Assembly (NCBI GenBank): GCA_012840485.1
Contig: DULG01000038.1
Location: forward strand, 1-62,918
Reading direction: 5' to 3'
DNA: 62,918 nt
From: Clostridia bacterium
GTDB taxonomy: Bacteria; Bacillota; Thermoanaerobacteria; Thermoanaerobacterales; Thermoanaerobacteraceae
Every line of letters starts with the position of its first letter. Position 1 is the stretch's first letter. The notes beneath the pieces were generated by a model. It was not told the DNA's origin and did not search any database. It saw nothing but the letters and a program-made list of their open reading frames with translations. Positions 22,935 to 61,771 of the stretch are shown here, piece by piece. The position numbers were made by a program, and so were the translations under genes.

Positions 22935-25865
22935 ATGATTGAAAGAATTTTTGAAATTATACAAAAAGAGGATAAAAAGAATCCTTTAACAGATGACCAA
23001 ATAGCCGCAATTCTCAATATTAAAAGAGAAGATGTGACACAATTTAGACTGAAAAATAATATTCCTGACTCAAGAGAAAGAAGAAAACCTTACCTTTTAG
23101 AAGATGCAAAAAAAATAATTTCAAAGGACCCAAATATTTCAGATAGAAATTTGACAAAACAATTAAATAATTTAGGATATAATATTTCTCGTTTTGTAGC
23201 TGCACAAATAAAAAAGGAAATTTTGAAAGATAAAATTGCAGATAATTTAGTGCAACGAAGTACTATTAAAAACGATACTGTAAATTTTGAAACTCCTAAA
23301 ACAGCTAAAAGCTTACTCTCATTTAAAGAGATTATTGGAAGCGAAGGAAGTCTTAAAGTGCAGATAAGCCTTGCAAAAGCTGCAGTACTTTATCCTCCCC
23401 ATGGATTGCATACTTTAATAGTAGGACCATCTGGATCTGGAAAAAGCCAGCTGGCTGAAGCAATGTACAATTTTGCAGTAGAATCAGGCCGCTTTAGAGA
23501 AGGTGCTCCTTTTGTTGTGTTTAACTGCGCCGATTATGCAGATAATCCACAACTTCTAATGGCACAGCTCTTTGGGTACGTCAAAGGAGCTTTTACCGGA
23601 GCTGATACAGAAAAAAGAGGGTTAGTAGAAAAAGCAAATGGAGGCATACTTTTTCTGGATGAAGTTCACAGGCTTCCTAGTGAAGGGCAAGAAATACTCT
23701 TTTATCTTTTAGATAAAGGCAAATTTAGGAGATTAGGGGAAACAGAGAGTACTAGAGAAGCGCAAATTATGCTCATTGCTGCTACCACTGAAAATCCAGA
23801 ATCAGCACTTCTTCTGACTTTTAGAAGAAGAATTCCTGTTCTGATTGAACTTCCATCTCTTTCCGAAAGACCTCCTCATGAAAGATATGAGATAATCTAT
23901 AACTTTTTCACAAAAGAGTCTGTGCGCCTTAATAAGACTATTGTGATTAAAAAAGAGGCTTTAAGGGCTTTGATGCTATATGAGTGCCCAGGTAATTTAG
24001 GACAATTGCGGAGTGATATTCAGGTTGCCTGCGCAAAAAGCTTTCTAGCGTCACTTGGTAGTAAAAGTTCTTCTTTAGTTGTGGATGTTTCTGACCTTCC
24101 AAATCACGTCAAAATGGGCCTCTTTAGACTGAATAAAAGAGATCCTGAAATAGAAAGGTATTTGGGAGAGGACCTTGTGGTCTATCCTGACAAGAAGGTA
24201 AAAATATTTCCAAAAGAAGACAGGTATATGCTTCCTGACGAAATATACCAATTTATAGAAGAAAGGTTTATTGACTTAAAAAGACAGGGACTTACAAAAG
24301 AAGAAATAGATAAAATTCTAAGCAAGGAAATGGAGATAGAGCTTAAAAAATTTGCTGCAAGTGTTAAAACCAGCATTTCAATTTCAAAGAAAGAGCTTGT
24401 GAATGTTGTGGGAGAAAAGATTGTGAATGCAGTCGAAAAAGCCTATGAAATTGCAAGGAGAAGCTTTAAAAATTTAGAAGACAATCTCTTTTACTCTCTT
24501 GCTATTCACTTGAGCGCGACGTATGAAAGGATATTGAGCGGCAAGCCCATCTTTAATCCTCAACTGGAGAACATAATCAGAGAATATCCTTTGGAGTATT
24601 CCACAGCTAAGATTATGGCTAAAGAAATAAATAAAGAGCTTGGAATTGAGCTTCCCGAGGAAGAGATAGGGTTTATAGCTATGTACTTAAAAACTTTTTC
24701 AGGAGAAAAGCCAGTGGAAGAGGGAAGAGTGGGAGTAATTGTTCTAACTCACGGACATGTGGCAAGCAGTATGGCAGAGGTGGCTAATAGGCTTTTGGGA
24801 GTTAATCATGCTATAGGTATAGACATGGCTTTAGATGAAAAACCCGAAAAAGTTCTTGAGAGGACAATTGAGGTTGTAAAAAGAATAGATGAAGGCAAAG
24901 GCTGTATTGTATTAGTTGATATGGGTTCTCTTGTAACCTTTGGTGAAATTATAACTAAAAGAACTGGAATACCTACGAGAGTTGTAGCAAGAGTGGATAC
25001 TGTGATGGTGTTAGAGGCTGTGAGAAGAGCTATTATACCTGAGACTACTTTGGATGAGATAGCAGATGCTATAGACAGTGAAAAGTCATATGTAGGGAAG
25101 GTAGAAACACTTTTTGACAAAAAGCCTTCCAAAGCTATTGTGACAGTATGTATAACTGGGGAAGGTACAGCCCTTAAAATAAAAAAGTACATTGAAGATT
25201 TGATTCCAGAACTTAAAGAAAATTACAAAGTAATTCCTGTCGGCATGCTAAGACAAGAGGATATAGCAAAAGAGATAGAAAAAATAAGAAAAGAAAATGA
25301 TGTGGCAGCATTTGTAGGTACAATAAATCCCGGCATAGAAAGTATACCCTTCATATCTGTAGAAGAAGTTTTAAAAGGAGATGGGGTAGAAAAGATAAAG
25401 AAGATAATAGGGCTTAAAAAGGAAAATCCGCTAAAAGAGGTAATTGACGAGGAGCTAATTTTCTTAGATGTAGATGCTTTTGTCAAAAGCGACGTGATAG
25501 ATTTGCTGGCAGAAAAACTCTATGAAAAAGGATATGTGGACGACAGGTTTTTATTAAGCGTATATAAAAGGGAAGCTATGGGAGCTACTATTTTAAACGA
25601 TGGAATAGCCATACCCCATGGTTACCCAGAACATGTCATAAAACCAGCCATAGCTATTGCAAAATTGAAAGAGCCTATATATTGGGAAAAGGACCTCATG
25701 GCAGATTTAGTATTTATGATAGCATTGAAAGAGGAGTCGAATAATTATTTGTCTTGGTTAAATAAGTTGGTTTTAAATAAAGAAATTGTACAAAAGTTGA
25801 AGAAAACTAAAACTTCTATGGAGATAAAGAAGATTATTGTTAATTTTACAAACCATGACGATTAG
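22935..25865 (+). CDS. LevR-type sigma-54 activator with PRD and PTS domains
   Basis: A 976-residue transcriptional activator. An N-terminal helix-turn-helix region occupies about residues 1-100. The AAA+ domain has Walker A GPSGSGKS (164-171), the sigma-54 contact loop GAFTGA (218-223) and Walker B ILFLDE (238-243). Next come a PRD (around 515-590, LEEEIGFIAMYL-like), an EIIA-Man-like domain (VLTHGHVASS, near 600) and a region with CITGEGTA near 735. A fructose-type EIIA domain (AIPHG) closes the protein. PTS phosphorylation of these histidines normally sets activity. It should activate the consensus sigma-54 promoter located just after its own stop codon, which drives the galactitol-type PTS. 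Confidence 0.9.
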   Translation: MIERIFEIIQKEDKKNPLTDDQIAAILNIKREDVTQFRLKNNIPDSRERRKPYLLEDAKKIISKDPNISDRNLTKQLNNLGYNISRFVAAQIKKEILKDKIADNLVQRSTIKNDTVNFETPKTAKSLLSFKEIIGSEGSLKVQISLAKAAVLYPPHGLHTLIVGPSGSGKSQLAEAMYNFAVESGRFREGAPFVVFNCADYADNPQLLMAQLFGYVKGAFTGADTEKRGLVEKANGGILFLDEVHRLPSEGQEILFYLLDKGKFRRLGETESTREAQIMLIAATTENPESALLLTFRRRIPVLIELPSLSERPPHERYEIIYNFFTKESVRLNKTIVIKKEALRALMLYECPGNLGQLRSDIQVACAKSFLASLGSKSSSLVVDVSDLPNHVKMGLFRLNKRDPEIERYLGEDLVVYPDKKVKIFPKEDRYMLPDEIYQFIEERFIDLKRQGLTKEEIDKILSKEMEIELKKFAASVKTSISISKKELVNVVGEKIVNAVEKAYEIARRSFKNLEDNLFYSLAIHLSATYERILSGKPIFNPQLENIIREYPLEYSTAKIMAKEINKELGIELPEEEIGFIAMYLKTFSGEKPVEEGRVGVIVLTHGHVASSMAEVANRLLGVNHAIGIDMALDEKPEKVLERTIEVVKRIDEGKGCIVLVDMGSLVTFGEIITKRTGIPTRVVARVDTVMVLEAVRRAIIPETTLDEIADAIDSEKSYVGKVETLFDKKPSKAIVTVCITGEGTALKIKKYIEDLIPELKENYKVIPVGMLRQEDIAKEIEKIRKENDVAAFVGTINPGIESIPFISVEEVLKGDGVEKIKKIIGLKKENPLKEVIDEELIFLDVDAFVKSDVIDLLAEKLYEKGYVDDRFLLSVYKREAMGATILNDGIAIPHGYPEHVIKPAIAIAKLKEPIYWEKDLMADLVFMIALKEESNNYLSWLNKLVLNKEIVQKLKKTKTSMEIKKIIVNFTNHDD

Positions 25866-25867
25866 TA

Positions 25868-25884
25868 TGGCACGATATTTGCAT
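25868..25884 (+). promoter_or_regulatory. Consensus sigma-54 promoter of the galactitol-type PTS operon
   Basis: TGGCACGATATTTGCAT: the -24 box TGGCACG is perfect, the -12 box is TTGCA, and GG (25869-25870) and GC (25881-25882) are 10 bases apart. It begins 3 bases after the activator's stop codon. The upstream activator sites therefore probably lie within the 3' end of the activator gene. Confidence 0.88.
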
Positions 25885-28895: not shown

Positions 28896-28937
28896 AAGTA
28901 ATTAAATTTTTATAAAAAAGACCGGAGAGTGGTATTT

Positions 28938-29291
28938 TTGGGACGTTATTTTACTGTAGTTTTCTATTCACCTTGGTTCGAAGAAATGGGGAGAGAAGGA
29001 GTGGAGAGAGTTTTAAGAGATGATTTGAAGTACCGCTTTGTAAAAAACGAGCATAATGGTTCGTGGTGGGAGAAGGGGAATAAAATAGCAACTTTTATTG
29101 GACTAGTCAACTGGAATCTACTATATAGGAAAGTTTTTGTAGAAGAAGTTGACAGAAATAAAGTGAGGTTTATTTATCATTTCTCGTGGCTTACAAATGT
29201 AGGTGTTTTGATATCTGCTGCAAGAGGAGAACTTGGATATTTACAACAGGTTTTTAAAGTAGAGAAAATGGAAGTAGAAAGGTTGCGGTAA
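28938..29291 (+). CDS. Conserved-looking hypothetical protein (117 aa)
   Basis: I do not recognise this protein. It is rich in aromatic residues (several F, Y and W, including NGSWWEKGN and YHFSWLTN), has no signal peptide or clear membrane helix, and ends in a helix that looks amphipathic. TTG 28938 has GGAGAG at a proper distance; an in-frame GTG at 28929 directly abuts that site. It lies inside the sigma-54 operon between the EIIA and FGGY kinase genes and is followed by a strong hairpin, so it belongs to the same sugar pathway by context only. Confidence 0.55.
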   Translation: MGRYFTVVFYSPWFEEMGREGVERVLRDDLKYRFVKNEHNGSWWEKGNKIATFIGLVNWNLLYRKVFVEEVDRNKVRFIYHFSWLTNVGVLISAARGELGYLQQVFKVEKMEVERLR

Positions 29292-35631: not shown

Positions 35632-38379
35632 TTGACAAACAAAGAGAAAGTATTTAATTTGGTTAAAGAATTATCACAGGATATCAATATAAAAGAGAAA
35701 AAAGGAGTTACTGCGCAGGAAATAGCCCAGAAATTAAATTTAAGGAGAAATGTGGCGAGCCATTTGTTGAACGAGCTATACAAAGAGGGCAAAGTGATAA
35801 AGATAAACACAAGACCTGTATACTTTTTGGATAAGGAAGTTTATGAGAAAAGGGCAAAAGAGTTTAAAGAAGCTTCAAAAGATTTGGGTGTTCCTGTAAA
35901 GAATTTTACAGAAGACCCTTTTACAAAGCTTATTGGATATAATGGGAGTCTTAAGGAGCAAGTAAAGTTGTGCAAATCAGCTGCTTCTTATCCACCTAAT
36001 GGTCTTCCTATTCTGCTCATCGGCAATACAGGAGTAGGTAAAAGCTATATTGCGCAGCTTATTTACGAATATGCTAAATCTATTGGTGCTATAGATGAAA
36101 ATGCTCCCTATGTAATATTTAATTGTGCTGAATACGCCAATAATCCTGAACTACTTTCCGCAAACCTTTTTGGCTATGTAAAAGGAACATTTACAGGTGC
36201 TGATAAAGACAAACCCGGCCTTTTAGAAGAAGCGAATGGAGGATATTTGTTTTTGGATGAGGTTCACAGGCTTCCGCCAGAAGGGCAGGAAAAACTGTTT
36301 CTATTTTTGGACAAAGGCATATTTAGAAGGCTTGGTGAGACAGGCAATTGGAGGACAGCAAAAGTAAGGTTTATATTTGCTACAACTGAAGACCCTGAGC
36401 AAACTCTTACAAAGACTTTTTTAAGAAGGATACCATTAGTTGTAAACATCCCCTCTCTTTATGATAGGCCTTTACATGAAAGGTTACAACTTATCTATAA
36501 CTTTTACAAAAATGAGGCCAAAAATTTGGGAATGGATATTTTAATAAGCAAACAAGTGCTGAATGTTCTTCTTAAGACCAAAATATCCGGCAACATTGGC
36601 AAACTTATAAATGTTATAAAATACAGCTGTGCTCAAGCCTATAACCATGTCATAAGAAAGAAAACAAATATATTGCGAATCCATCTATATGACCTGCCAA
36701 GAGAGATGCAGGCTGATTTAGATATAATAAAAAGTAATTTTCATTTTAACGGAGTGTTAATTTCTCACAATAGAAAAGATGAAGATCTGGTATGGGATGG
36801 AGAAGACAATAAAGATGTATATGAAGTAGCAAACAAAATATTTGAGCTATTTGAGAAATATAGTAGTAAGGAAATAAATGCTGATAGTTTTAAAAAAGAT
36901 TCTTTGATTTATTTAAATGAGTTTACAGATAAAATAATTTTTAAAAACGATAACACGTATATAGATTCAATAGTTTTCAATGCTATTAAAAACGTAGTAG
37001 AAAATGTGTTAAATATAATACAAAATATGTACGGAATTAAATATTATGGCAATTCAGTTTTGGTATTGACTCATTTTATTAATTATTTATTAAGCGATGT
37101 AACTTACGAGAAGTATTCTGAGAATATAAAAGTGGTATTGGGAGTTTTGAAAAATGTTTTTCCCAAAGAGTTTATAATAGCTAATAAAATAGTTGAACTT
37201 ATTGAAGTTAACCTGGACGTCAAGCTCAACCAAATAGCTGTAATTTATTTTACACTTTATATTAAAAGCTTAAATAAAAGTGACAATACTAATCTCATAA
37301 ATTCTATAATAATAGCCCATGGTTATTCAACTGCCAGTAGCATAGCTAGTATCGCCAATAGGCTTTTGGGACAGTTTGTTTTTGAAGCTTTTGATATGCC
37401 AATTGAGATGTCGACACAAGAGATTATGCTAAAAGTTCAAGATTATTTAAAAAATATAGATACCTCCAAAGGGATTATTATATTAGTAGACATGGGTTCT
37501 TTAGAGGAGATATACAAGTCTTTGACTGACATTGTCGAGGGAGACATAGCAATTATTAATAATATCACTACTCAATTGGCTTTAGACGTTGGGAATAGAA
37601 TATTGCAAAATCAACCACTAGAGCAAATTGTAACAGAGGCAATACAGAAAAATAGTATTAGTCATAGGTTGATTAAATCTCAAAAACACAAAAGAAATGC
37701 TATTCTTACAACATGTATTACGGGGATTGGGACTGCTGTTAAAATAAAAGACCTTTTACATCAATGCCTTGCCAGCGAAGATGTTGAAATAATTGCATAT
37801 GATTACAATAGGCTTAAAGGCAACGGCATAAAAGATGAGGTATTCAAAAATTTCAATGTCAAGCTAATTATTGGTACAGCAGATCCTGGCATAAAGGAAA
37901 TACCTTATTTGTCTTTAGAAGATTTAATTACAGGGAATGGTAACGTATTCTTGAGTAAGGTCTTAAAAGGATTTGCAGATGATGTAACTATAGAGCGAGT
38001 TAATCAAGCAATAGTTAAGCTTTTCTCTTTACAGAATGTACTTCATTATCTTACTATATTAAATCCCGATAAAATAATTGATCAGGTTGAAAAAGCTGTC
38101 AGTGATTTAGAGTTACATCTTGGATTTAAATTTTCAAATGACTTAAAGATAAGTTTGTATATACACATGAGCTGCTTGATTGAAAGGTTAATAATGAAGG
38201 ATCCTATTACTTCTTATGAAAAACTAAAAGAATTTGAACAGTGTCATAGACACTTTATAGATTGTGTAAAATCTTCTTTTAGTGTAATAGAAGAAATCTA
38301 TAAAGTAGAAATTCCTACATCAGAGATAGGGTTTATATATGACATAATCCGTTCTAAAGTAAAAAATGTGGCTGTTTAG
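35632..38379 (+). CDS. Second LevR/ManR-type sigma-54 activator
   Basis: A 915-residue activator. It has a winged-helix N-terminus (about 1-68) and an AAA+ domain with Walker A GNTGVGKS (131-138). The sigma-54 loop reads GTFTGA (185-190) instead of the usual GAFTGA, and Walker B is YLFLDE. Next come a first PRD, an EIIA-Man-like domain (IIAHGYSTASS), a region with CITGIGTAVK and a C-terminal PRD (QCHRHFIDCVKSSF). TTG start behind AAAGGGGAG. It differs from the 22935 activator in its DNA-binding end and in lacking a C-terminal fructose-type EIIA. It is followed directly by a sigma-54 promoter that drives an ABC transporter cassette. Confidence 0.9.
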   Translation: MTNKEKVFNLVKELSQDINIKEKKGVTAQEIAQKLNLRRNVASHLLNELYKEGKVIKINTRPVYFLDKEVYEKRAKEFKEASKDLGVPVKNFTEDPFTKLIGYNGSLKEQVKLCKSAASYPPNGLPILLIGNTGVGKSYIAQLIYEYAKSIGAIDENAPYVIFNCAEYANNPELLSANLFGYVKGTFTGADKDKPGLLEEANGGYLFLDEVHRLPPEGQEKLFLFLDKGIFRRLGETGNWRTAKVRFIFATTEDPEQTLTKTFLRRIPLVVNIPSLYDRPLHERLQLIYNFYKNEAKNLGMDILISKQVLNVLLKTKISGNIGKLINVIKYSCAQAYNHVIRKKTNILRIHLYDLPREMQADLDIIKSNFHFNGVLISHNRKDEDLVWDGEDNKDVYEVANKIFELFEKYSSKEINADSFKKDSLIYLNEFTDKIIFKNDNTYIDSIVFNAIKNVVENVLNIIQNMYGIKYYGNSVLVLTHFINYLLSDVTYEKYSENIKVVLGVLKNVFPKEFIIANKIVELIEVNLDVKLNQIAVIYFTLYIKSLNKSDNTNLINSIIIAHGYSTASSIASIANRLLGQFVFEAFDMPIEMSTQEIMLKVQDYLKNIDTSKGIIILVDMGSLEEIYKSLTDIVEGDIAIINNITTQLALDVGNRILQNQPLEQIVTEAIQKNSISHRLIKSQKHKRNAILTTCITGIGTAVKIKDLLHQCLASEDVEIIAYDYNRLKGNGIKDEVFKNFNVKLIIGTADPGIKEIPYLSLEDLITGNGNVFLSKVLKGFADDVTIERVNQAIVKLFSLQNVLHYLTILNPDKIIDQVEKAVSDLELHLGFKFSNDLKISLYIHMSCLIERLIMKDPITSYEKLKEFEQCHRHFIDCVKSSFSVIEEIYKVEIPTSEIGFIYDIIRSKVKNVAV
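38240..38254. promoter_or_regulatory. Candidate upstream activator site (palindrome)
   Basis: A perfect 15-base palindrome, AGTGTCATAGACACT, lies inside the last codons of the activator gene, centred 160 bp upstream of the -24 GG of the sigma-54 promoter. The same GTGTC-N3-GACAC core recurs at 58005 at a similar distance from a -24 element. Enhancers for LevR-type activators normally lie at such distances. Confidence 0.45.
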
Positions 38380-38382
38380 AAA

Positions 38383-38419
38383 GTGCCAAGTGATATTACA
38401 CTGCTTGGCACATTTTTTG
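38383..38419 (+). terminator. Terminator hairpin shared with the sigma-54 promoter
   Basis: GTGCCAAG (38383-38390) pairs with CTTGGCAC (38404-38411), followed by ATTTTTT. The 3' arm and T-run are also the -24 box and spacer of the next promoter. Confidence 0.7.
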
Positions 38420-38422
38420 CAA
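38405..38422 (+). promoter_or_regulatory. Sigma-54 promoter of the ABC/amino-sugar cassette
   Basis: TTGGCACATTTTTTGCAA: GG (38407-38408) and GC (38419-38420) are exactly 10 bases apart, and the -24 TGGCAC and -12 TTGCA boxes are near-perfect. A purine-rich leader of about 230 bases with no supported gene runs from here to the lipoprotein gene at 38652. Confidence 0.85.
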
Positions 38423-38651: not shown

Positions 38652-39947
38652 ATGAGAAAGTTTATTGCGCTAATAGTGGTGTTGGCATTGGTTATTGGGT
38701 GTATAGCAGGATGCAGCAATAAGGCTGCACAAAAAGAAGAACAACCTTCTCAGCAACCTGCTCAGGAAAAGGTTACTATAAAATTCTGGCAAGCAGGTGG
38801 AGATACTGCTGGAGCAGCCGAAAAAATGTCAGAGCTTATAAAAAAGTTTGAAGAAGCAAATCCCAATATCAAAGTAGAATATATGGCAATACCGTGGGCT
38901 GAAAATCCACATGAAAAATTTCAAACAGCTATAGTAGGTGGAGAAATAGCAGACCTTTTAGTTGTGGGGTCACCATTTGACCACGTCTTGGCAAATAGTG
39001 GTGCAATAATTTCTTTAGATCAATTTGCAGATGAAAATCTTAAAAAAGATTTAATGGATGTTTTTGCAAGAGAAGGTATATATCATGGTAAAAATAAAGA
39101 AATGGATGGAAAACTTATTTCTATTCCTTTATTTGGAGATGTAAGAACAATTGTGTATAATAAAGAAATTTTCCAGAAAAGTGGTGTTCCTGAACCTACA
39201 GAGTCTTGGACACTTGAAGAATTTAAGCAAAATGCTATAAAACTTACCAAAGATGATGTATATGGATTTGGTACTTCTGCAAGATATTCATCTCAGTGGC
39301 TTCCATTTGTATGGGATAAGGGTGGAGATATACTGAATGAACAAATGACAGAAGCAACAGTTACTACTCCAGAATGGAAAGAGGCAATTGAATATTATAT
39401 TGATTTACTTAATAAAACCAGTGTTCCAGGTTCTATTAATGTAAATTTAGCAGATATTCAGAAATCGTTTGCAGAAGGAAAAGTTGCAATGTTTGTTACT
39501 ACGCAGGATTATGTACAGGAACTTATGAAGGATCCTAATTTAAAAGATAAAATAGGTGTAGGTCAAATGCCCCATGATAAGTATCAAACTGCTTTTGCAG
39601 GGGCAGATGTTTTAGTAATTACCAAACAATCAAAACATCCAAAAGAAGCTTGGGAATTACTTAAATTCTTGGTATCTACCGAAAGTCAAATAGATTATTG
39701 CAAAACAGTAGGATTTTTGCCAGTAGTGAAATCAGCTGCAAGCGATCCTTACTTTACTAATGATCCTATCAAAAAAGGATTCTTACAAGCTCTTGAACAT
39801 GGTAAGTTTTATACAAAATCTGATAAAGCATCGGGTATTACTACAATATTACGTGCAGAAATACAAAATGCTATTTCAAAGAAGAAGACTGTGGATAAAG
39901 CTCTGGAAGATATGAAACAGGCAATTGACCTTCTTTTGAAGTCATAA
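38652..39947 (+). CDS. ABC transporter sugar-binding lipoprotein
   Basis: A 431-residue family 1 extracellular solute-binding protein. It has a lipoprotein signal peptide with lipobox IAGC (Cys21), a polar linker, then the fold opening VTIKFWQAGGD with a characteristic FAEGKVAMFV segment near residue 277. It would capture an oligosaccharide outside the membrane and pass it to the permeases encoded next. GGATAGGAGG gives a strong ribosome binding site. The hairpin after the gene probably raises its level over the permeases. The substrate is not directly visible; genes downstream suggest an amino sugar. Confidence 0.9.
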   Translation: MRKFIALIVVLALVIGCIAGCSNKAAQKEEQPSQQPAQEKVTIKFWQAGGDTAGAAEKMSELIKKFEEANPNIKVEYMAIPWAENPHEKFQTAIVGGEIADLLVVGSPFDHVLANSGAIISLDQFADENLKKDLMDVFAREGIYHGKNKEMDGKLISIPLFGDVRTIVYNKEIFQKSGVPEPTESWTLEEFKQNAIKLTKDDVYGFGTSARYSSQWLPFVWDKGGDILNEQMTEATVTTPEWKEAIEYYIDLLNKTSVPGSINVNLADIQKSFAEGKVAMFVTTQDYVQELMKDPNLKDKIGVGQMPHDKYQTAFAGADVLVITKQSKHPKEAWELLKFLVSTESQIDYCKTVGFLPVVKSAASDPYFTNDPIKKGFLQALEHGKFYTKSDKASGITTILRAEIQNAISKKKTVDKALEDMKQAIDLLLKS

Positions 39948-39963
39948 ATCCTACTTGATAGAA

Positions 39964-39991
39964 ACAGGCGCACCTAAAAAGGTGTGCCTGT
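39964..39991 (+). terminator. Hairpin after the binding-protein gene (attenuator)
   Basis: ACAGGCGCACCT (39964-39975) pairs with AGGTGTGCCTGT (39980-39991) over 12 bp with one G-T pair and a 4-base A loop. No T-run follows, so it likely protects the lipoprotein mRNA or only partly stops transcription. Confidence 0.65.
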
Positions 39992-40054
39992 CTATAAACT
40001 ATAGGCAATTTACTGGTGTTTGGTAGTAAAAAAATGTAAAAGTGGTGTAGAAGA

Positions 40055-40948
40055 ATGATTGTAACAAATAAAAAAGAAAAAATGGGCTACTATTTATTTC
40101 TTTTGCCAGCATATTTAATATTTACAGTGTTTATATTTTGGCCAGTTATTCACTCATCATATCTTTCCTTTTTTAAATATAACATAATAACTATTACTTC
40201 GCCAGATTTTGTCGGTTTAAAAAACTATAAATTTTTATTTAATGATGAAGTTTTTTGGACAAGTATAAAAAATACTGTGATATTTGTTATAAGTACTGTT
40301 CCTGTTAAAATGGCTTTGGGAATTATGCTTGCTATGCTTCTTAATCGTAAAGATTTGAGGTTTAAAACATTCTACAGAACCTGTTTTTATATACCTGTTG
40401 TAATTTCTATGGTTGCGATTTCAATCGTATGGATGTTGTTATTTAATCCAGGCCCTAATGGAGTAGTTAATATATTGCTATCAAAATTTGGAGTAAAGCC
40501 TCTGGGGTGGATTGCGGACTCGAATCTTTCTTTATTAACTGTAATGTTATTAGTAATATGGAAAGATTTGGGATATATTATGGTAATATATTTGTCAGGA
40601 CTTATGAGGATACCTGACGAAATCTATGAAGCAGTAGCTTTGGATCCCGTAAGTTCATGGCAAAAATTCTGGTATATTACATGGCCTTTGTTAAAACCTA
40701 CTACTATTTTCATTCTTATAACTCAAATAATAGAGTCATTCCAAGTATTTACGCCAATTTATGTAATAACGGAAGGAGGACCAGGATACAGTAGTACTAC
40801 CATAGTGAATTATTTATATCAAAAAGGTTTTAGAGAATATGAAATGGGCATAGCATGTGCAGTGGCTTACCTATTATTTGTGGTACTCCTCATATTGACC
40901 ATGTTGCAAAACAAAATCTCCAAGGCTGAAGAAATCCGGTATGACTAA
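40055..40948 (+). CDS. ABC sugar permease, MalF/UgpA type
   Basis: A 297-residue inner-membrane permease with six hydrophobic segments. The coupling loop that contacts the ATPase reads YEAVALDPVSSWQKFWYITW, followed by P, a variant of the EAA motif with Pro in place of the usual Gly after Asp. It pairs with the permease encoded 38 bases downstream. No ATP-binding subunit gene is present nearby, so a shared MsmK-type ATPase elsewhere is expected. Confidence 0.88.
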   Translation: MIVTNKKEKMGYYLFLLPAYLIFTVFIFWPVIHSSYLSFFKYNIITITSPDFVGLKNYKFLFNDEVFWTSIKNTVIFVISTVPVKMALGIMLAMLLNRKDLRFKTFYRTCFYIPVVISMVAISIVWMLLFNPGPNGVVNILLSKFGVKPLGWIADSNLSLLTVMLLVIWKDLGYIMVIYLSGLMRIPDEIYEAVALDPVSSWQKFWYITWPLLKPTTIFILITQIIESFQVFTPIYVITEGGPGYSSTTIVNYLYQKGFREYEMGIACAVAYLLFVVLLILTMLQNKISKAEEIRYD

Positions 40949-40986
40949 TATAAAGAGTTTGGAAAGTTAAAAGAAAGGGTGAAAAA

Positions 40987-41811
40987 ATGAAAAAAATTTT
41001 GCTGTATGTAATAATAACAATTACGGCATTTTTTATGCTTTCTCCCATGTTATGGATGGTTTCTACTTCTTTTTCAAAGGATTCTATAATTGCTTCAGCG
41101 AATATTATACCTAGAGATTTTACTATAGAAAATTATATAAAAGCATGGAATTTTCCTAAAGTGTTTGACAAAAGTGTTACATTCGGTACTTTCTTTTTGA
41201 ATAGTGTGATAGTTACAGCATGTTTAGTCGTAGGGGGGTTATTCGTAGACTCGCTTGCGGGATATGTACTTGCGAGAAAGGATTTTCCAGGGAGGAATGT
41301 GTTTTTCTATGCAGCGCTTGCAACTCTTATGATTCCTATTTATGTTACTGCAATTCCTATGTTCCTTATAGTGCGAGGTTTAGGATGGATAAATACCTAT
41401 GAAGCATTAATTATTCCATTTCTTTCATCAGGGTTTGGTATATATATGTTTAAGCAGTATTTTCAAACTATACCTATTGAATTAGAGGAAGCTGCAAAGA
41501 TTGATGGTTATTCTGATTTTTGGATTTATGCGCGTGTTATAGTGCCACTGGCAAAACCGGCATTTGGAACTATGGCAATACTTAAATTCATGTGGTCATG
41601 GAATATGTTTTTCTGGCCTTTGATTGTAACTACCGACATCAAAATGAAAGTGTTGCAATTGGGACTTACAATGTTTAGGGGACTTAATGTAACTCAGTGG
41701 GGACTTTTAACAGCCGGCATGACTATTGCTACTTTACCGCCTGTTATTATTTACATTATTTTTCAAAGATATTTTACAGGTGGATTAATGGCTGGTTCTT
41801 TAAAAGGTTAA
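40987..41811 (+). CDS. ABC sugar permease, MalG/UgpE type
   Basis: A 274-residue permease with six hydrophobic segments and a canonical EAA loop (LEEAAKIDGYSDFWIYARVI, then VPLAKPA). The C-terminus (YFTGGLMAGSLKG) is the usual ending of MalG-like subunits. It forms a heterodimeric channel with the preceding gene product. ATG start behind AGAAAGGGTG. The BadF-type kinase gene begins 18 bases after its stop. Confidence 0.9.
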   Translation: MKKILLYVIITITAFFMLSPMLWMVSTSFSKDSIIASANIIPRDFTIENYIKAWNFPKVFDKSVTFGTFFLNSVIVTACLVVGGLFVDSLAGYVLARKDFPGRNVFFYAALATLMIPIYVTAIPMFLIVRGLGWINTYEALIIPFLSSGFGIYMFKQYFQTIPIELEEAAKIDGYSDFWIYARVIVPLAKPAFGTMAILKFMWSWNMFFWPLIVTTDIKMKVLQLGLTMFRGLNVTQWGLLTAGMTIATLPPVIIYIIFQRYFTGGLMAGSLKG

Positions 41812-52152: not shown

Positions 52153-53058
52153 TTACAATTCAAGATTAGGATATGACTCCTTTAATATTCCAATGAATGC
52201 TCTAGCAGGTGCAGACAAGATTTTGTCTTTCTTTTGTACATAATAAAGCTTTCTTATGAATTTTATATCTCTAAATTTCAAACCTATAAGCCCGCCAAAA
52301 GCTATTTCTTTTTCGATAGTATTTTCTGGAATAATTGACACTCCAAGACCTGCCTCAACAGCCTGCTTAATAGCTTCTATGTTTCCAAGTTCTATTGTTT
52401 TTTTGATATCTATTCCCCTTCCTGTAATTATTTTTTTGACAAAGGACATAGTTGCTGATTCTTTATTAGAACATATAAAACATTCTTCTTCAAGTTCCTC
52501 TATATTTATATTATTTCTATCCTTCCATCTATGAAAAGGTGGAATTATGAGAACTAATTTCTCACTGCAGAAAGGAACGCATATAAGACTCTTATTCTCA
52601 ATAATTTCTCCATTATCCGCTATAAGAGCAAAGTCAATCACATTGGTATGAATATATTCCAGTATTTTATGATAAAAATTAACATGCAAATTTATGTAAA
52701 TGTTTGGATATTTAGAAAGATATTTTTTTAATAACTGCGGTATACGATATACACCTATCGAACCTGTTGCACCGAAAGAAAGAATTCCCCGGTTTAGCGA
52801 TTCCATTTCGCATATTTTTGCTAGATAATCTCTTGTAAGATTAAGTACAGTTTCGGCATATTCAAGAAAAAGTTTACCATTTTCATTTAAATATACTTTT
52901 TTTCCTATCCTATCAAATAATTTGCAGCCCACATAGTTTTCAATTTCTTGTATATGCTTTGTAACTGTAGGTTGAGAGCAAAATAATTCTTCTGAAGCCT
53001 TTGTAAAACTCTGATTCTTAGCCATTGCACAAAAGGTTTTTAGTTTTTCAATATCCAT
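52153..53058 (-). CDS. LysR-family transcriptional regulator
   Basis: A 301-residue LysR-type regulator. It begins MDIEKLKTFCAMAKNQSFTK with the helix-turn-helix KASEELFCSQPTVTKHIQEI, and has the periplasmic-binding-like effector domain from about residue 90. It is transcribed away from the DASS transporter gene, the classic layout for a LysR protein controlling its neighbour in response to the transported acid. The shared 130-bp spacer contains a palindrome that overlaps its own -10 region, suggesting autoregulation. Confidence 0.9.
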   Translation of the reverse strand: MDIEKLKTFCAMAKNQSFTKASEELFCSQPTVTKHIQEIENYVGCKLFDRIGKKVYLNENGKLFLEYAETVLNLTRDYLAKICEMESLNRGILSFGATGSIGVYRIPQLLKKYLSKYPNIYINLHVNFYHKILEYIHTNVIDFALIADNGEIIENKSLICVPFCSEKLVLIIPPFHRWKDRNNINIEELEEECFICSNKESATMSFVKKIITGRGIDIKKTIELGNIEAIKQAVEAGLGVSIIPENTIEKEIAFGGLIGLKFRDIKFIRKLYYVQKKDKILSAPARAFIGILKESYPNLEL

Positions 53059-53077
53059 AGTTTATCACCTCCATTTT

Positions 53078-53100
53078 AATTATAACATTTCGTTATAATT
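53078..53100. promoter_or_regulatory. Palindromic operator between lysR-type gene and transporter
   Basis: AATTATAAC (53078-53086) and GTTATAATT (53092-53100) are exact 9-bp inverted arms around a 5-base centre. The TTATAAC half-sites fit a LysR T-N11-A type box. On the minus strand the palindrome supplies TATAAT, a likely -10 for the regulator. Confidence 0.65.
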
Positions 53101-53117
53101 ATTACTATATTATTGAA

Positions 53118-53146
53118 TTGTATAATAAATAAACATGATATATAAT
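53118..53146 (+). promoter_or_regulatory. Sigma-A promoter of the DASS transporter
   Basis: TTGTAT (53118-53123), 17 bases and TATAAT (53141-53146) lie about 40 bp ahead of the transporter's ATG and 18 bp after the palindrome. Confidence 0.5.
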
Positions 53147-53188
53147 GAGACTGAAAAACCAAATAAAAATTTGTGAAGGGGGAAAAGT

Positions 53189-54670
53189 ATGAATATTTTA
53201 ACTGCAGGAATAGAAGGAAAAGAAAAGACAAACTTTGAAAAGTGGCTTTCATATCTTGGGGTGCCAATAGCAGTTATAATTTTCGCGTTACTTTTTACGA
53301 TGAGAACTCCCACTGGATTGACGCTTCAAGGGAAATCGGCGATTGCTGTGTTTTTGGCGGTGTTCGTGCTGTGGGTATCACAGGCTGTTCCAACGTTTGT
53401 TTCATCCCTCATTGCAATAGTATTGTTAACGCTTACAAGTGCATGGGATGAAAAGTCAGTACTTGGAGTATTTGGATATGATGTAATTTGGTTGATGATA
53501 TCTGCATTCATAATTACTTCTGGAATGACAAAAACAGGACTTGCTAACAGGGTTGCTCTTTGGCTTGTTTCTACTTTTGGAAAGACTGCACGTCGTGCTC
53601 TTATTTCTTTGATAATAGCTAACTTTGTAATTGCATTTATTGTGCCTTCTACAACAGCAAGAGCTGCTCTGATGCTCCCCATAGCATTGCTTGTTGCACA
53701 GGCATATGGTGCTCAACCTGGCAAAAGTAATTTTGGGAAATTAATAATGATACAGGAATTGCAAGTAAATAATATTTCCACAACTGCTATTTTGACTGCA
53801 ACCGCACCTCAAATTATGGCAGTTGGAATTATAAAAGACCTCACCGGATATAATGTATCGTGGTCAGAATGGTTTATTGCTTCACTTCCTGTTGCCTTGT
53901 GTACAATGATAATATCATACTTAGTAGGTCTTATGATATTTGAGCCAGAAGTGAGTGTACCGGTGATGGAAGATCGTGGCAATGACGGTATAGGGAAGTT
54001 AAAGGAACAACTTCGTAAGATGGGACCTATGACAAAGGAAGAGAAAAAAGCCCTGTTTATATTTTGCCTTACCGTATTCCTGTGGGCAACAGATAAGTGG
54101 CATGTTCAAATGTTTGGCTTTAAAATCAGCCTTGTAATGGTTGCGATTATATCTGCTACACTGTTTTATCTACCTTTTATAGGACTTATTAGTTGGAAGG
54201 ACACAAAAATTCCATGGGACCTTATGATATTCAGTGCTGGTGCCTATGCAGTAGGTATGGCATTAGATAAATCTGGTGCAGCAGCATGGGCATTAAAGGC
54301 TGTATTTGGCAGTTTAGACCTTGGTAAGATAGGATTTTTCCCATTATACATGATAGTTATATTTATTGCTATATTTAGCCATCTGGTGTTTACTAGTAAA
54401 ACAGTAAGGACAGCGATATTAATACCAGCAGTAATAGGCATTGCAAATGCTGCAGGAATAAATCCAATAGCTTTAGCGTTACCGGCGTCCTTTACAATTG
54501 CAGATTCAATTACCCTACCTCCTCACTGTAAACCCAATCTGATATTCTACAGTACCGGTTATTTCAGTGTGCTTGATCAATTCTTCTATGGGATGATAGT
54601 CCTCATAGGCAAGTGGCTATTGCTGGGTATAGCTTCATTGACGTGGTTCAAAATTATAGGGATATGTTAG
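53189..54670 (+). CDS. DASS-family (SLC13) anion/dicarboxylate transporter
   Basis: A 493-residue membrane protein with about 12 hydrophobic segments. The motifs FIVPSTTARAALMLPI and FTSKTVRTAILIP (two S-x-T/T-x-P-type anion loops of inverted repeats), and FTIADSITLPPHCKPNLIFY near the end, identify the divalent anion:Na+ symporter family. Substrates of this family include succinate, malate, tartrate and sulfate. It is divergent from the LysR regulator and followed by a secreted protein and a PGM-like enzyme, possibly one pathway. Confidence 0.85.
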   Translation: MNILTAGIEGKEKTNFEKWLSYLGVPIAVIIFALLFTMRTPTGLTLQGKSAIAVFLAVFVLWVSQAVPTFVSSLIAIVLLTLTSAWDEKSVLGVFGYDVIWLMISAFIITSGMTKTGLANRVALWLVSTFGKTARRALISLIIANFVIAFIVPSTTARAALMLPIALLVAQAYGAQPGKSNFGKLIMIQELQVNNISTTAILTATAPQIMAVGIIKDLTGYNVSWSEWFIASLPVALCTMIISYLVGLMIFEPEVSVPVMEDRGNDGIGKLKEQLRKMGPMTKEEKKALFIFCLTVFLWATDKWHVQMFGFKISLVMVAIISATLFYLPFIGLISWKDTKIPWDLMIFSAGAYAVGMALDKSGAAAWALKAVFGSLDLGKIGFFPLYMIVIFIAIFSHLVFTSKTVRTAILIPAVIGIANAAGINPIALALPASFTIADSITLPPHCKPNLIFYSTGYFSVLDQFFYGMIVLIGKWLLLGIASLTWFKIIGIC

Positions 54671-54688
54671 AAAAGGAGGAAGGGTACT

Positions 54689-55447
54689 ATGTTTAAAAAA
54701 ATAAAAGTGATATTATTAATGGCTATCTTTATATTATCAGTAGCTTTGACTTCCGTTTTATATGCTGCACAAAACCCGGATTTTAAAAGTTACAAAGAAG
54801 TTTTCTTACCTATAAATGAAAAAGATGCGAAACTTACCATTACAGCAGAAGAAGTTCCTGATGCAGCAGGTTACGTTTATTTATTTAGTACAATAAAAGA
54901 AGCAAAGCTTGAAGAAGTTCAAGCAGAGGAGAATGTCCTTGTAAATAATACGCCTGAAAAGAAAAAAATAGGAAGTGTTGATTGCCTTGCGTTTAAAGTC
55001 TTGGATAAGGAAAAGCCTATAAAACTCAAAGTATCCTTTATGGTGCCAAACTTTTATTCAATTAAAAATGAAGCAGCTGAGGAAAGTACGGGACCAGGAG
55101 GGACTTACAGAGTATCTTATTCTTTTACATGTCCTGTAGCTTCTGGTATTGATACTTATTCATTAAAAATCCTGTTACCAGAAAATAATGAAATATTGAC
55201 TGTTACTGCTCCTAAAACTTATGAAATTGGAATGGAAGGGAAAAACAGATATATACTTGTGAATATGAAGGGAAAAGAAGGCAAGAAAGGTCTTAGTTTT
55301 GCGGAATCTGTAAGTATGGATTTTGTAATAAAAAAGGAGAGTACAACCAAAAATATTTTGGTCTGGATTGTATCATTGGGAATAGCCGCAACATTTTTAG
55401 TATTTAATAAAAAACAATTAGGGGAAGAAGGGAAAGAGGTATCATAA
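54689..55447 (+). CDS. Secreted protein with C-terminal membrane anchor, unknown function
   Basis: A 252-residue protein with a signal peptide (hydrophobic stretch ending near SVLYAAQN), a beta-rich extracellular domain of about 190 residues, and one C-terminal membrane helix (NILVWIVSLGIAATFLVF) followed by a short basic tail. I do not recognise the family. It is sandwiched between the DASS transporter (18-base gap, AAAGGAGGAAGG ribosome binding site) and the PGM-like gene (no gap), so it probably works with the transporter at the membrane. Confidence 0.6.
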   Translation: MFKKIKVILLMAIFILSVALTSVLYAAQNPDFKSYKEVFLPINEKDAKLTITAEEVPDAAGYVYLFSTIKEAKLEEVQAEENVLVNNTPEKKKIGSVDCLAFKVLDKEKPIKLKVSFMVPNFYSIKNEAAEESTGPGGTYRVSYSFTCPVASGIDTYSLKILLPENNEILTVTAPKTYEIGMEGKNRYILVNMKGKEGKKGLSFAESVSMDFVIKKESTTKNILVWIVSLGIAATFLVFNKKQLGEEGKEVS

Positions 55448-56695
55448 ATGAGGAAAAAGAAATGCATAATGGTTATAGGAGATGGGCTTGGAGATAGACC
55501 GGTTGAATTGTTGCAAGGTAAAACACCTCTGGAAGTAGCAAAAAAACCCGTTATAAATATGCTTTCATTAAATGGTATGACTGGGCTTGTACACCCGTAC
55601 AAGCCCGGCATAAGAGTTGGTACAGATGTTGGACATCTTTGTATATTCGGGTATGAACCAGAAAAAGTTTATAGTGGGAGAGGTCCAATTGAAGCATTTA
55701 GTGCGGGAATAGAACTTAAAGCTGATGATGTTGCTTTTCGTGCTAACTTTGCTACTGTGAGTGAAGATTTGACGGTTATAGATAGAAGAACAGGTCGTAT
55801 AAGAGAAGGTACAAGATTGTTGGCGGAGAGTTTAAATGGTATAGAAATAGACGATTGTAAAATATTTGTTAAGGAGTTGACAGAACATAGAGCAGCAGTT
55901 GTGATAAGGGGAGAAGGTTTAAGTGATATGGTAACAGACACAGATCCAGGAACGGCACATGAGGGAGAAAAAGTTAAAAGACCTCTTCCTACAGAAAATA
56001 CGCTAGAAGCAGAAAAAACTGCAAGGGTATTATGGAAATTTCTTATGCGAGCTCATGAGATATTAAAAATACATCCTGTCAACGTAGAAAGGCAAAAAAA
56101 TGGTCTCTTTCCTGCTAATTTTATCATAACCAGGGGTGCAGGTAAGTTAAAGAAAATAGAAAAAATTACAGATATTTTTAAAGTCAAGGCAGCATGTATT
56201 GCAGGAGATGAGACAATACTTGGAATAGGGAAAATGTGCGGTTTTGATGTATTTACCAGTAACAAATTTACAGGGAGTTTTGATACTGATTACAAGGGCA
56301 AAGCATTGATGGCGCTTCAAAAAATAAATGAAGGGTATGACTTTGTGGTAGTTCATGTAAAAGCTACAGACCTTGCTGGCCATGATAACATACCTTTCAA
56401 AAAAGTAGAGGTGATAGAGAATATAGAAACTATTTTTTCTCTTCTTTATTCAAATATAGATAGATTAAATACATATTTATGTTTAACTGCTGACCACACA
56501 ACCCCGTGTTCTGTAAGAGACCATACCTGTGATCCAGTTCCTGTATTTATATGGGGGAGTGATGTTAGAAAAGATGGTATTCAGGAATTTGGAGAAGAAT
56601 ATATAAAGAGCGGTTCTCTGTCGGGATACACTGCAAAAGATGTATTTTATACACTCATGGATTTCATGGGATATACTGAAAAATACGGCGCTTAG
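55448..56695 (+). CDS. Archaeal-type cofactor-independent phosphoglycerate mutase (ApgM family)
   Basis: A 415-residue member of the alkaline-phosphatase superfamily closest to archaeal ApgM. It has GDGLGDRPVELLQGKTPLEV at the N-terminus (metal and phosphate site), TDVGHLCIFGYEP, YSGRGPIEA, and the metal-binding end CLTADHTTPC. It would interconvert 3- and 2-phosphoglycerate. Bacteria with this type normally also have a main glycolytic mutase, and the position behind a dicarboxylate-type transporter hints at another phospho-acid substrate (inference). Confidence 0.8.
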   Translation: MRKKKCIMVIGDGLGDRPVELLQGKTPLEVAKKPVINMLSLNGMTGLVHPYKPGIRVGTDVGHLCIFGYEPEKVYSGRGPIEAFSAGIELKADDVAFRANFATVSEDLTVIDRRTGRIREGTRLLAESLNGIEIDDCKIFVKELTEHRAAVVIRGEGLSDMVTDTDPGTAHEGEKVKRPLPTENTLEAEKTARVLWKFLMRAHEILKIHPVNVERQKNGLFPANFIITRGAGKLKKIEKITDIFKVKAACIAGDETILGIGKMCGFDVFTSNKFTGSFDTDYKGKALMALQKINEGYDFVVVHVKATDLAGHDNIPFKKVEVIENIETIFSLLYSNIDRLNTYLCLTADHTTPCSVRDHTCDPVPVFIWGSDVRKDGIQEFGEEYIKSGSLSGYTAKDVFYTLMDFMGYTEKYGA

Positions 56696-56707
56696 AGGTG
56701 ATTTTTA

Positions 56708-57991
56708 ATGGAACTAAAATTTTTCGGGGGTTCTGGAGAGTATGGAAGGGCATGTTTTGCAGTGTTAAGTGAGCATAAAAACATACTTCTAGACTGTGGT
56801 GTTAAAAGGATACAGATTAAAAACAAAGTTGGTGAATATCCTCTGATTGATGGGGAGCTTATTAAAAATATAGATTATGTATTTTTATCCCATGCTCACG
56901 AAGACCACTGTGCTGCTCTTCCACTTCTTTATAAATTGGGATACGATGGATATATTTATTGTACTGAAGAGACAGCAATACAATCGAGAGATAGCATAAA
57001 AAAATGGATAAATACTGTACTCCAAAATAATGGAGCACTTCCTTTTAATTTATCTGATGTAGATAAGGTAAAATATCGTACAATTACATTGGGTAAATCT
57101 ATTATTGAGAAAAATTTCGAAGTTGAGGCAGGAATGAGTGGTCACATGGTAGGTGGAGTATGGTTTAAATTTAGGCTTGATAGGAAGAAAATCTTTTATT
57201 CAGGAGATTATTGTTTTGATTCTATTCTTTTAAATTATGAAGTGCCCCATGATAAGTGTGATATAGCAATTATAGACGCTTCATACGGGGATGACAATAC
57301 TAGGCAGGAAGAATATTGGGACAGAATTTACAATAAAATTAAGGAAACAGTGACAAGAGGGGGAAAAGCATTACTTCCAGTGCCTGCCCGTGGTAGAGGT
57401 GTGGAGATACTTCTTTTATTGACACAAAAACCTCTATTAATAAGAGAGAACAGAATAGAAATTTATGTAGAAAAAAATATATTAGATGCAGTTAAGGAAG
57501 TCAAATGCAGTCAGAACTGGCTTAAAACATCTGCAAGGGAATATTTTGAAAACTTTAATTTGGCTTTGATAAATGTAGTTAGCTCAAAAATTGAAAGAGA
57601 GAAGATAGTAAGAAGCGAAGGTCCAGCTGTTATACTCTGTACAGATGGGATGATATCATCTGAAACCTCTCTTTATTACTTTGAAAGTATCAGTAAAAAT
57701 GAACTAAATACAATAATTCTTACAGGATATCAAGCAGAAGGAACTATTGGTAAAAGGATATTAAGTGATGAGGGACGCAAAGAGTTAAATGTAAAATGTG
57801 AAGTTGTGAACATAAGGCATAAAGTGCATCCAGGGTTCAACGATTTACTCATTCTCTTGGATTCAATAAAACCCGATAATACACTTTTAGTGCATTGCGA
57901 ATTTGAAATATGTAAAAATCTCGTGCCTCTTCTTAAAAAACACGGTTATAATTCCAATTGCTTTATGCCGGGAGAATTTATAAAGGTTTAA
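56708..57991 (+). CDS. Metallo-beta-lactamase-fold beta-CASP nuclease-like protein
   Basis: A 427-residue MBL-fold protein. The zinc motif is LSHAHEDHC (His62, His64, Asp66, His67), with a later Asp in YSGDYCFD. The beta-CASP region includes PARGRG and GYQAEGTIGKRIL, seen in CPSF-73-like RNA-processing nucleases, and the last His occurs in LLVHCE. It might process RNA. Co-transcription with metabolic genes (12 bases after the PGM-like gene) leaves a hydrolase role open. Confidence 0.78.
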   Translation: MELKFFGGSGEYGRACFAVLSEHKNILLDCGVKRIQIKNKVGEYPLIDGELIKNIDYVFLSHAHEDHCAALPLLYKLGYDGYIYCTEETAIQSRDSIKKWINTVLQNNGALPFNLSDVDKVKYRTITLGKSIIEKNFEVEAGMSGHMVGGVWFKFRLDRKKIFYSGDYCFDSILLNYEVPHDKCDIAIIDASYGDDNTRQEEYWDRIYNKIKETVTRGGKALLPVPARGRGVEILLLLTQKPLLIRENRIEIYVEKNILDAVKEVKCSQNWLKTSAREYFENFNLALINVVSSKIEREKIVRSEGPAVILCTDGMISSETSLYYFESISKNELNTIILTGYQAEGTIGKRILSDEGRKELNVKCEVVNIRHKVHPGFNDLLILLDSIKPDNTLLVHCEFEICKNLVPLLKKHGYNSNCFMPGEFIKV

Positions 57992-57997
57992 ATAAAT

Positions 57998-58111
57998 TTG
58001 TGCAGTGTCACAGACACATTGCAAAATTTTATTGAATTTTTGATTAGTATCATATTTGGCTGTTCGTATGAAGTTATATTAGGAGAAAAGAGAGATAATT
58101 TGGTTGTTTAG
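57998..58111 (+). pseudogene. Remnant of the 3' end of a LevR-type activator gene
   Basis: QCHRH encoded at 58003-58017 (CAGTGTCACAGACAC) matches QCHRHF near the C-terminus of the 35632 activator. The last codons before the TAG at 58109 read YEVILGEKRDNLVV, against YDIIRSKVKNVAV at the end of that activator. The pieces are in different frames and the middle is shortened, so this is a relic. The terminator hairpin that follows is also homologous. The rest of the gene is missing: the beta-CASP gene ends just upstream. Confidence 0.75.
58005..58017. promoter_or_regulatory. Candidate upstream activator site (palindrome) in the relic
   Basis: GTGTC-ACA-GACAC is a perfect palindrome centred 128 bp upstream of the -24 GG at 58139. 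The same core lies at 38241-38253 ahead of the module 2 sigma-54 promoter. Confidence 0.45.
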
Positions 58112-58112
58112 A

Positions 58113-58150
58113 GCATGTCAAGTAGTACTACACTACTTGGCATGCTTTTT
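58113..58150 (+). terminator. Terminator hairpin overlapping a -24 element
   Basis: GCATGTCAAGTAGT (58113-58126) pairs with ACTACTTGGCATGC (58132-58145) over 14 bp with one T-G pair, followed by TTTTT. It is the counterpart of the hairpin at 38383. Confidence 0.8.
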
Positions 58151-58154
58151 GTTA
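58137..58154 (+). promoter_or_regulatory. Sigma-54-like promoter with altered -12 box
   Basis: TTGGCATGCTTTTTGTTA has a good -24 box (TTGGCATG) and the right 10-base spacing from GG (58139-58140), but the -12 box reads TTGTT instead of TTGCA. It is the counterpart of the promoter at 38405 and precedes the kinase and mannose-type PTS genes. Activity may be reduced by the change in the GC step. Confidence 0.5.
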
Positions 58155-58220: not shown

Positions 58221-59207
58221 ATGTTTTTCCTTGGAGTAGATGGAGGAGGAACAAAAACTAAATTTGCTCTTTTTAATGACCAGTTAAAAGTATGTGGTAC
58301 TTTTGATACAACCACATCCCATGTAACCCAAGTAGGGAAGGAAGGTGTAATTAAAGTTTTACAATCTGGACTAGAAAATGTACTTCAAGAAGCAAAAATA
58401 TGTAAAGAAGAAATAAAATATGTAGTTTTAGGGATGCCAGGTTATACAGAAATCAAAAGTAACGATGCACAAATTGAAGAAGCAGTGGCGAGTGTTTTTA
58501 ATTTTACAAATTACTACATTGTAAATGATGCTGAAGTAGGATGGGCAGGAGCACTTGCCTGTCAACCGGGTATTAACATAGTGGCAGGAACTGGTTCTAT
58601 CGCTTTTGCAGTGGATGTGGAAGGGAGAAGGGAAAGAATTGGAGGTTGGGGAGAATTTATAGGTGATGAGGGAAGTGCTTATTGGATTGCAAAAAAAACA
58701 TTAGAAGGGTACAGTAAACAGAAAGATGGGCGATTACTTAAAACAGTTTTGGTAGATATAATTGATAAAAAATATGGCATAAAAGATAAATTCGAAATAA
58801 TTGATATAATGCACAATCAATATAAATTAAAGCGAGATAAAGTTGCAGAATTATCTTTATGTACATTTGCTGCAGCACAGAGAGGATGTAAATATTCAAT
58901 AGAAATTTTTGAAAAGGCGGCATATGAGCTTTTTTTACATGTGGAGGGAATATTAAGAAAAACAAAATATTCGGATACAATTTTAGTCTCATATGTAGGG
59001 GGTGTTTTTAAAGCTGGGGATTTTGTGTTACAACCTTTAAAAACTTTTTTAAGCAAATTAAATGACAAAATTGTATTACTTCCTCCCAAGATGGAGCCTT
59101 GTTTCGGGGCAGCATTTTATGCTTACTTAAAGTATAAAAGTTTAAATCCGACAGAGGAATTAATTGATACACTGGTGCAGGAAATCAGGAACTACTTGAA
59201 AAATTAG
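58221..59207 (+). CDS. BadF/BadG-type ATPase, probable amino-sugar kinase (second copy)
   Basis: A 328-residue BadF-family kinase. LGVDGGGTKTKFALFND begins the ATP site, GINIVAGTGSIAFAV is the second phosphate loop, and WGEFIGDEGSAYWIAKKTLE and SYVGGVFKAG are the other shared segments. It is a distant paralogue of the kinase at 41830, having the same order of motifs but different sequence. N-acetylglucosamine kinase or MurK-like activity is the best guess. It lies between the sigma-54-like promoter and the mannose-type PTS. Confidence 0.82.
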   Translation: MFFLGVDGGGTKTKFALFNDQLKVCGTFDTTTSHVTQVGKEGVIKVLQSGLENVLQEAKICKEEIKYVVLGMPGYTEIKSNDAQIEEAVASVFNFTNYYIVNDAEVGWAGALACQPGINIVAGTGSIAFAVDVEGRRERIGGWGEFIGDEGSAYWIAKKTLEGYSKQKDGRLLKTVLVDIIDKKYGIKDKFEIIDIMHNQYKLKRDKVAELSLCTFAAAQRGCKYSIEIFEKAAYELFLHVEGILRKTKYSDTILVSYVGGVFKAGDFVLQPLKTFLSKLNDKIVLLPPKMEPCFGAAFYAYLKYKSLNPTEELIDTLVQEIRNYLKN

Positions 59208-59262
59208 TTTACAAAAATCAGTGTATATGGTAAAACCTTAGGTAAAAGGAGATGATGTTTTA

Positions 59263-59736: not shown

Positions 59737-59747
59737 GAGGTGTGAAT

Positions 59748-61287: not shown

Positions 61288-61323
61288 AAAGTCAATATAA
61301 AACTTCGCTATTGGAGGTTTAAA

Positions 61324-61734: not shown

Positions 61735-61771
61735 TTGGACAATACTTTCGATAGGGTGGAAGGTGAACAAA

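Follow-up and report, generated by a model that had tools for sequence, protein, structure and literature searches.

Candidate sigma-54 enhancer sites within the coding end of a LevR-type activator gene whose probable terminator shares bases with the downstream promoter

LevR of Bacillus subtilis is an EBP with PRD and EIIA-Man domains that is encoded next to a mannose-family PTS and is reported to act on the lev operon from a UAS near -125 (PMC10864463). In Clostridiales, a survey of CelR and LevR motifs found multiple UAS sites, mostly 100-250 bp upstream of TTGGCAT-N5-TTGCT promoters (Nie 2019, PMC6615313). That survey took its training motifs from upstream non-coding sequence, and the parts we consulted name no coding-embedded site, no terminator overlap and no Thermoanaerobacter. 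Sigma-54 enhancers can also occupy unusual places, as for the B. subtilis enhancer, probably that of RocR, which lies downstream of rocG and 1.5 kb downstream of its promoter rather than within the activator's coding sequence (PMC3844500). Sigma-54 elements inside genes are known from Salmonella, although those are promoter/polymerase sites (PMC3844500), in contrast to the putative activator sites in coding sequence that we describe here. In the open-access literature that we searched, which did not extend to older subscription papers, we found no description of a coding-embedded LevR enhancer or of a terminator/-24 overlap, although the motif itself may already be known.

We analyzed a 62,918-nt stretch of DNA (the window; contig DULG01000038.1 of assembly GCA_012840485.1) from the 2.65-Mb genome of a heat-loving member of the Thermoanaerobacteraceae. 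The 915-codon ORF at 35632-38379 (+) encodes a LevR-type sigma-54 activator: Pfam profiles matched Sigma54_activat (140 bits), PRD (80 bits, two stretches) and EIIA-man (33.5 bits). Its GAFTGA loop reads GTFTGA, a substitution listed as putative (PMC3162934), while the consensus of seven orthologs is GAFTGA. The nearest NCBIfam model, the DagR equivalog, scored 588 bits, below its curated cut-off of 1400. Of 20 genomes of the family, 12 including our own hold an ortholog, with 72-89% identity in the 11 others. Ten of the 12 orthologs have a mannose-family PTS operon directly downstream, whereas the window and one other genome (G007) have a carbohydrate ABC transporter operon, whose first genes lie at 38652-41811 (+) in the window. 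The matches of its substrate-binding protein to known families all fell below curated cut-offs, and an ortholog of this binding protein was found only in G007 among the 20 genomes.

The original prediction proposed an enhancer-like palindrome in the last coding segment of this gene, a -24/-12 promoter whose -24 box is the 3' arm of the gene's own terminator hairpin, and a second copy of the core palindrome near 58 kb. Indeed, all of these sequence elements are present. The perfect palindrome AGTGTCATAGACACT lies at 38240-38254 (+), within codons 870-875 and coding Q-C-H-R-H, and its core, GTGTC-N3-GACAC, occurs at exactly two places in the whole genome, 38241 and 58005. The sequence TTGGCACATTTTTTGC is found at 38405-38420, 26 bp after the stop, and contains the -24/-12 element TGGCACATTTTTTGC at 38406-38420 (+); the palindrome starts 166 bp upstream of TGG. 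The pattern TGGCAY-N5-TTGY occurs three times in the window (25868, 38406 and 58138) against 0.51 expected, and 3 of 100 shuffles reached three. All three sites are on the same strand and upstream of carbohydrate operons; two follow LevR-like activator genes and the third precedes a kinase and an Aga-type PTS operon. Genome-wide, the stricter TGGCAY-N5-TTGC occurs 29 times against 1 for the reversed pattern, and the genome encodes sigma-54 (Sigma54_DBD, 220.7 bits, at C90:9045-9521), so the promoter reading is sound.

The second copy precedes an apparent second target operon at 58221-62626 (+), which encodes a BadF/NagK-like kinase, an Aga-type (mannose family) PTS IIB-IIC-IID-IIA and a tagatose-bisphosphate-type aldolase. 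Here the first site, AGTGTCACAGACACA, is non-coding at 58004-58018 (+) and matches the 38-kb palindrome in 13 of 15 bases. A weaker second site, AGTATCATATTTGGC (8 of 15), follows 42 bp later at 58046-58060 (+). The -24/-12 element TGGCATGCTTTTTGT is at 58138-58152 (+), and its -24 box lies 134 bp downstream of the start of the palindrome, not 128 bp as first proposed. This copy shares flanking bases with the coding end (TTTG..CAGTG, TGTTTAG) and may be its decayed duplicate; however, with the hairpin left out, the local alignment of the two did not stand out from other window segments (score 60, third of the list), so common descent is suggested but not shown.

We next asked whether the palindrome was conserved beyond what the protein sequence requires in relatives that keep the promoter. 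The perfect palindrome is kept in the coding end of only 2 of the 12 family orthologs, with 14 of 15 bases kept in most of the others. Rather than the perfect palindrome, the conserved unit is a half-site word, AGTGTMA(TAG), repeated 41-42 bp (four helical turns) or 21 bp apart. In our locus the second site, AGTGTAATAGAAGAA, is at 38281-38295 (+), 41 bp after the first and in another reading frame (S-V-I-E). In most orthologs the 11-mer AGTGTCATAGA occurs twice in the last 150 nt of the gene, in two frames (Q-C-H-R and S-V-I-E) and 41 bp apart. Across eight representative orthologs, codon choice was unusually conserved at both sites, which ranked 13 and 6 among 914 five-codon windows for excess identical codons, although other stretches of the gene, for example around codons 627 and 812, scored as high or higher.

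When the best-scoring pair was chosen freely between 20 and 63 bp, the spacing was 41 bp in 13 of 13 coding modules, and 42 bp in 6 and 40 bp in 1 of 7 non-coding modules. The coding figure is one homologous state inherited by many, and the non-coding copies are the stronger evidence. These are the 58-kb copy, two loci in Caldanaerobacter (L060, L064), the second PTS promoter in three Thermoanaerobacterium genomes (L135-L137) and one locus in Caloramator (L143). Non-coding copies with helical spacing precede target operons in four genera. The pair pattern AGTGTMA-N33-36-AGTRTMA has only two hits in our genome, 38240 and 58004. Of 23 hits of GTGTCAHAGACA in the 20 genomes, 10 had no sigma-54 match within 320 bp and were set aside as chance.

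To compare these modules with controls, we added six loci from more distant relatives (L190-L194 and L197), giving 26 modules. Within 320 bp upstream of the -24 box, AGTGT[AC][AG] occurs 57 times, against a mean of 3.1 and a maximum of 10 in 100 dinucleotide shuffles, and 23 of 26 modules have a phased pair (20-22 or 40-43 bp). In contrast, 35 promoters behind other EBP genes have 1 word and no phased pair, and 28 other pattern matches in our genome have 4 words; three promoters are in both control sets. The three modules without a phased pair are the 58-kb copy, whose second site is AGTATCA, and two with a degraded first site (L033, L034). These counts must be read with some care, as the word was defined after the sites were seen and many of the modules are near-identical relatives. 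The window also carries a paralog at 22935-25865. Its promoter abuts the stop as well (it starts 2-21 bp after the stop in 15 of 16 paralog loci), yet we found no AGTGTMA word in its coding end, the only candidate word that we followed up there.

Two natural experiments were informative. In Caloramator quimbayensis (L143) the ortholog (71%) has no -24/-12 element after it and its coding end no longer holds an AGTGT word (AATGTCATGGAAAAT and AAAAGCAATTGAAGA), yet 2.6 kb downstream AGTGTCATTGACAGT and, 42 bp on, AGTGTCAAAAAAATA lie before TGGCATGTTTTTTGC, ahead of a second PTS operon. In genome G427 (locus L197, of a family labeled f92) the promoter lies 157 bp after the aligned gene end, behind a separate hairpin. 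There, the coding residues S-V-I-E..Y-S-V have become K-D-I-E..Y-N-V, and three AGTGTAA words, 21 and 32 bp apart, now lie between the genes. The other f92 relatives, with the promoter 12-40 bp from the stop (L190-L193), and L194 from another family keep two or three words in the coding end at 21 or 41 bp. These are only two independent events, but they are consistent with the coding enhancer being needed only where its promoter is. A third relative, G114, has an activator ending near residue 501 and neither promoter nor sites. The arrangement does have limits: three remoter LevR relatives (Clostridium L147 and L148, Enterococcus L150; 35-43%) have a promoter behind the gene but no good match to the sites and no such hairpin.

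The hairpin at 38383-38411 (+), followed by a T-run, is the probable terminator of the activator gene, and its 3' arm contains the -24 box. It folds at -14.4 kcal/mol (z -3.45), while the 17-pair hairpin at 58110-58148 (+), which also has a T-run and overlaps the -24 box, folds at -24.2 kcal/mol (z -6.9). A simple terminator scan listed the 58-kb hairpin but not that at 38 kb. At 58 kb the hairpin no longer follows an activator gene and would end the transcript of the upstream genes. All five bases of TGGCA pair with an upstream arm in a stem stronger than -9 kcal/mol in 14 of 25 modules, 3 more have a strong but imperfect stem, and 8 have none; L197, folded separately, has none. Eleven distinct hairpins show changed pairs on both sides around the fixed box (for example G-C, A-T and C-G at position -2), and in L194 the whole -24/-12 element is the 3' arm of an inverted repeat. 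Among 22 paralog loci, two of them without a promoter match, none has such a stem. No Rfam family matched in the window at gathering scores.

We also observed an element that was not part of the original prediction. TTACACT, the reverse complement of the UAS word AGTGTAA, sits at 38396-38402 (+), exactly 3 bp before TGGCA. It matches 7 of 7 bases at this distance in 13 of 26 modules and at least 6 of 7 in 20 of 26, including modules without a hairpin (L004-L006, L064, L141). Among controls, 0 of 35 and 0 of 28 match at 7/7, and 3 of 35 and 1 of 28 at 6/7. This position would correspond to about -36 to -30, at the edge of the polymerase, and the element may be a promoter-proximal activator half-site. 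More speculatively, and we regard this as unlikely on present evidence though not excluded, these loci could represent a distinct class of sigma-54 promoter in which the activator also recognizes this fixed inverted half-site, inside or beside a hairpin that ends the activator's own transcript. One protein's enhancer, terminator and promoter would then be fused, activator occupancy could couple promoter priming or blocking to termination of its own mRNA, and such enhancers would move in and out of coding sequence as the promoter moves.

Together, these data support, with good confidence though from sequence comparison alone, a compact sigma-54 control unit. We propose that the LevR-type activator binds two half-palindromic sites about four helical turns apart which, in its own gene, lie within the last 46 codons. 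From there it may loop onto the sigma-54 polymerase at 38406-38420 to fire the ABC transporter operon, and a non-coding copy of the unit at 58004-58152 would let it fire the kinase/Aga-PTS/aldolase operon 20 kb downstream. The hairpin inferred to end the activator's transcript is built from the -24 box itself plus a complementary left arm, with the T-rich -24/-12 spacer as its T-run. Protein binding, DNA looping, termination and induction through PTS phosphorylation are all inferences.

Of the alternatives, the one that survives best, although we find it improbable, is that the hairpin/-24 overlap is a coincidence of AT-rich gene ends. The overlap is absent in 8 of 25 modules and in 4 of 9 distant loci that we folded, and a G+C-rich -24 box followed by a T-rich spacer is already half a terminator that is easily completed by a left arm, which is also a plausible reason for the overlap. 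However, it recurs in the 5 other distant loci (L190-L194), with different flanks and compensatory pairs, and of the 29 pattern matches in our genome only 38406 pairs the whole box in a strong stem. It is much less likely that the sites bind a different regulator, such as a repressor or global factor. Palindromic 15-mers suit many dimeric regulators and binding data are lacking, but the word follows this activator's orthologs and their target operons, is nearly absent (1 word) from the 35 promoters of other EBPs, and lies 64-252 bp upstream of -24/-12, a placement that suits an EBP site (PMC6615313). Finally, that the palindrome is a by-product of conserved protein sequence in the second PRD, with the 58-kb copy only a decayed fragment of the gene's end, is very unlikely: although the sites do lie in a Pfam PRD domain and the 58-kb copy does share flanking bases, the word is kept in two frames with excess codon identity, non-coding copies in Caldanaerobacter (L064), Thermoanaerobacterium and Caloramator keep the sites and spacing, and the residues are replaced where the promoter is absent or moved.

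Regulon surveys that look for activator sites only in non-coding sequence will miss enhancers of this kind. The locus appears to give a clean case of protein-coding sequence under DNA-level selection as an enhancer, with natural losses when the promoter goes, and a ready system for asking whether a sigma-54 closed complex and a terminator that share bases influence each other. Moreover, it predicts a regulon for an uncharacterized activator, consisting of an ABC cluster and an Aga-type amino-sugar PTS.

In the genome of the window, the GAFTGA loop of the LevR-type activator (36184-36201) reads GTFTGA, while the consensus of its orthologs is GAFTGA. In a subset of these orthologs (loci L007-L010 and L141), a further AGTGT[AC] word was observed in the coding sequence, 70 bp upstream of site 1 of the putative UAS. 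The activator ortholog of genome G366 (locus L184) is reported with four in-frame stops although promoter and sites are intact, and genome G114 has one ending near residue 501 with no promoter or sites.

In Caldanaerobacter, a C39-peptidase-like ORF sits between the activator gene and its relocated promoter (positions 3105-3536 of locus L079, the matching cluster in Caldanaerobacter subterraneus), and the copy of the promoter left behind has lost its -12. In the window, a LysR-type regulator, an SLC13-type transporter, and phosphoglycerate-mutase-like and metallo-beta-lactamase-like genes, named here from reading the ORFs, lie at 52153-57991, but the matching cluster in C. subterraneus goes straight to the second target promoter, indicating either an insertion or a loss. 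Near a PTS/sugar operon, a 120-aa ORF (28929-29291) had no Pfam match at E <= 0.001.

The window encodes another LevR-like activator (22935-25865). At the end of this paralog (25863-25882), the -24/-12 element starts 2-21 bp after the stop codon in 15 of 16 loci, so its enhancer should also lie in the coding sequence or elsewhere; however, no AGTGTMA word is there. The protein begins (22935-23222) with a domain resembling the sigma-54 DNA-binding domain (Pfam PF04552, 30.8 bits against a cut-off of 22.8; RpoN structures 2o8k and 2ahq, E about 1e-4), so this activator may read a -24-like sequence.
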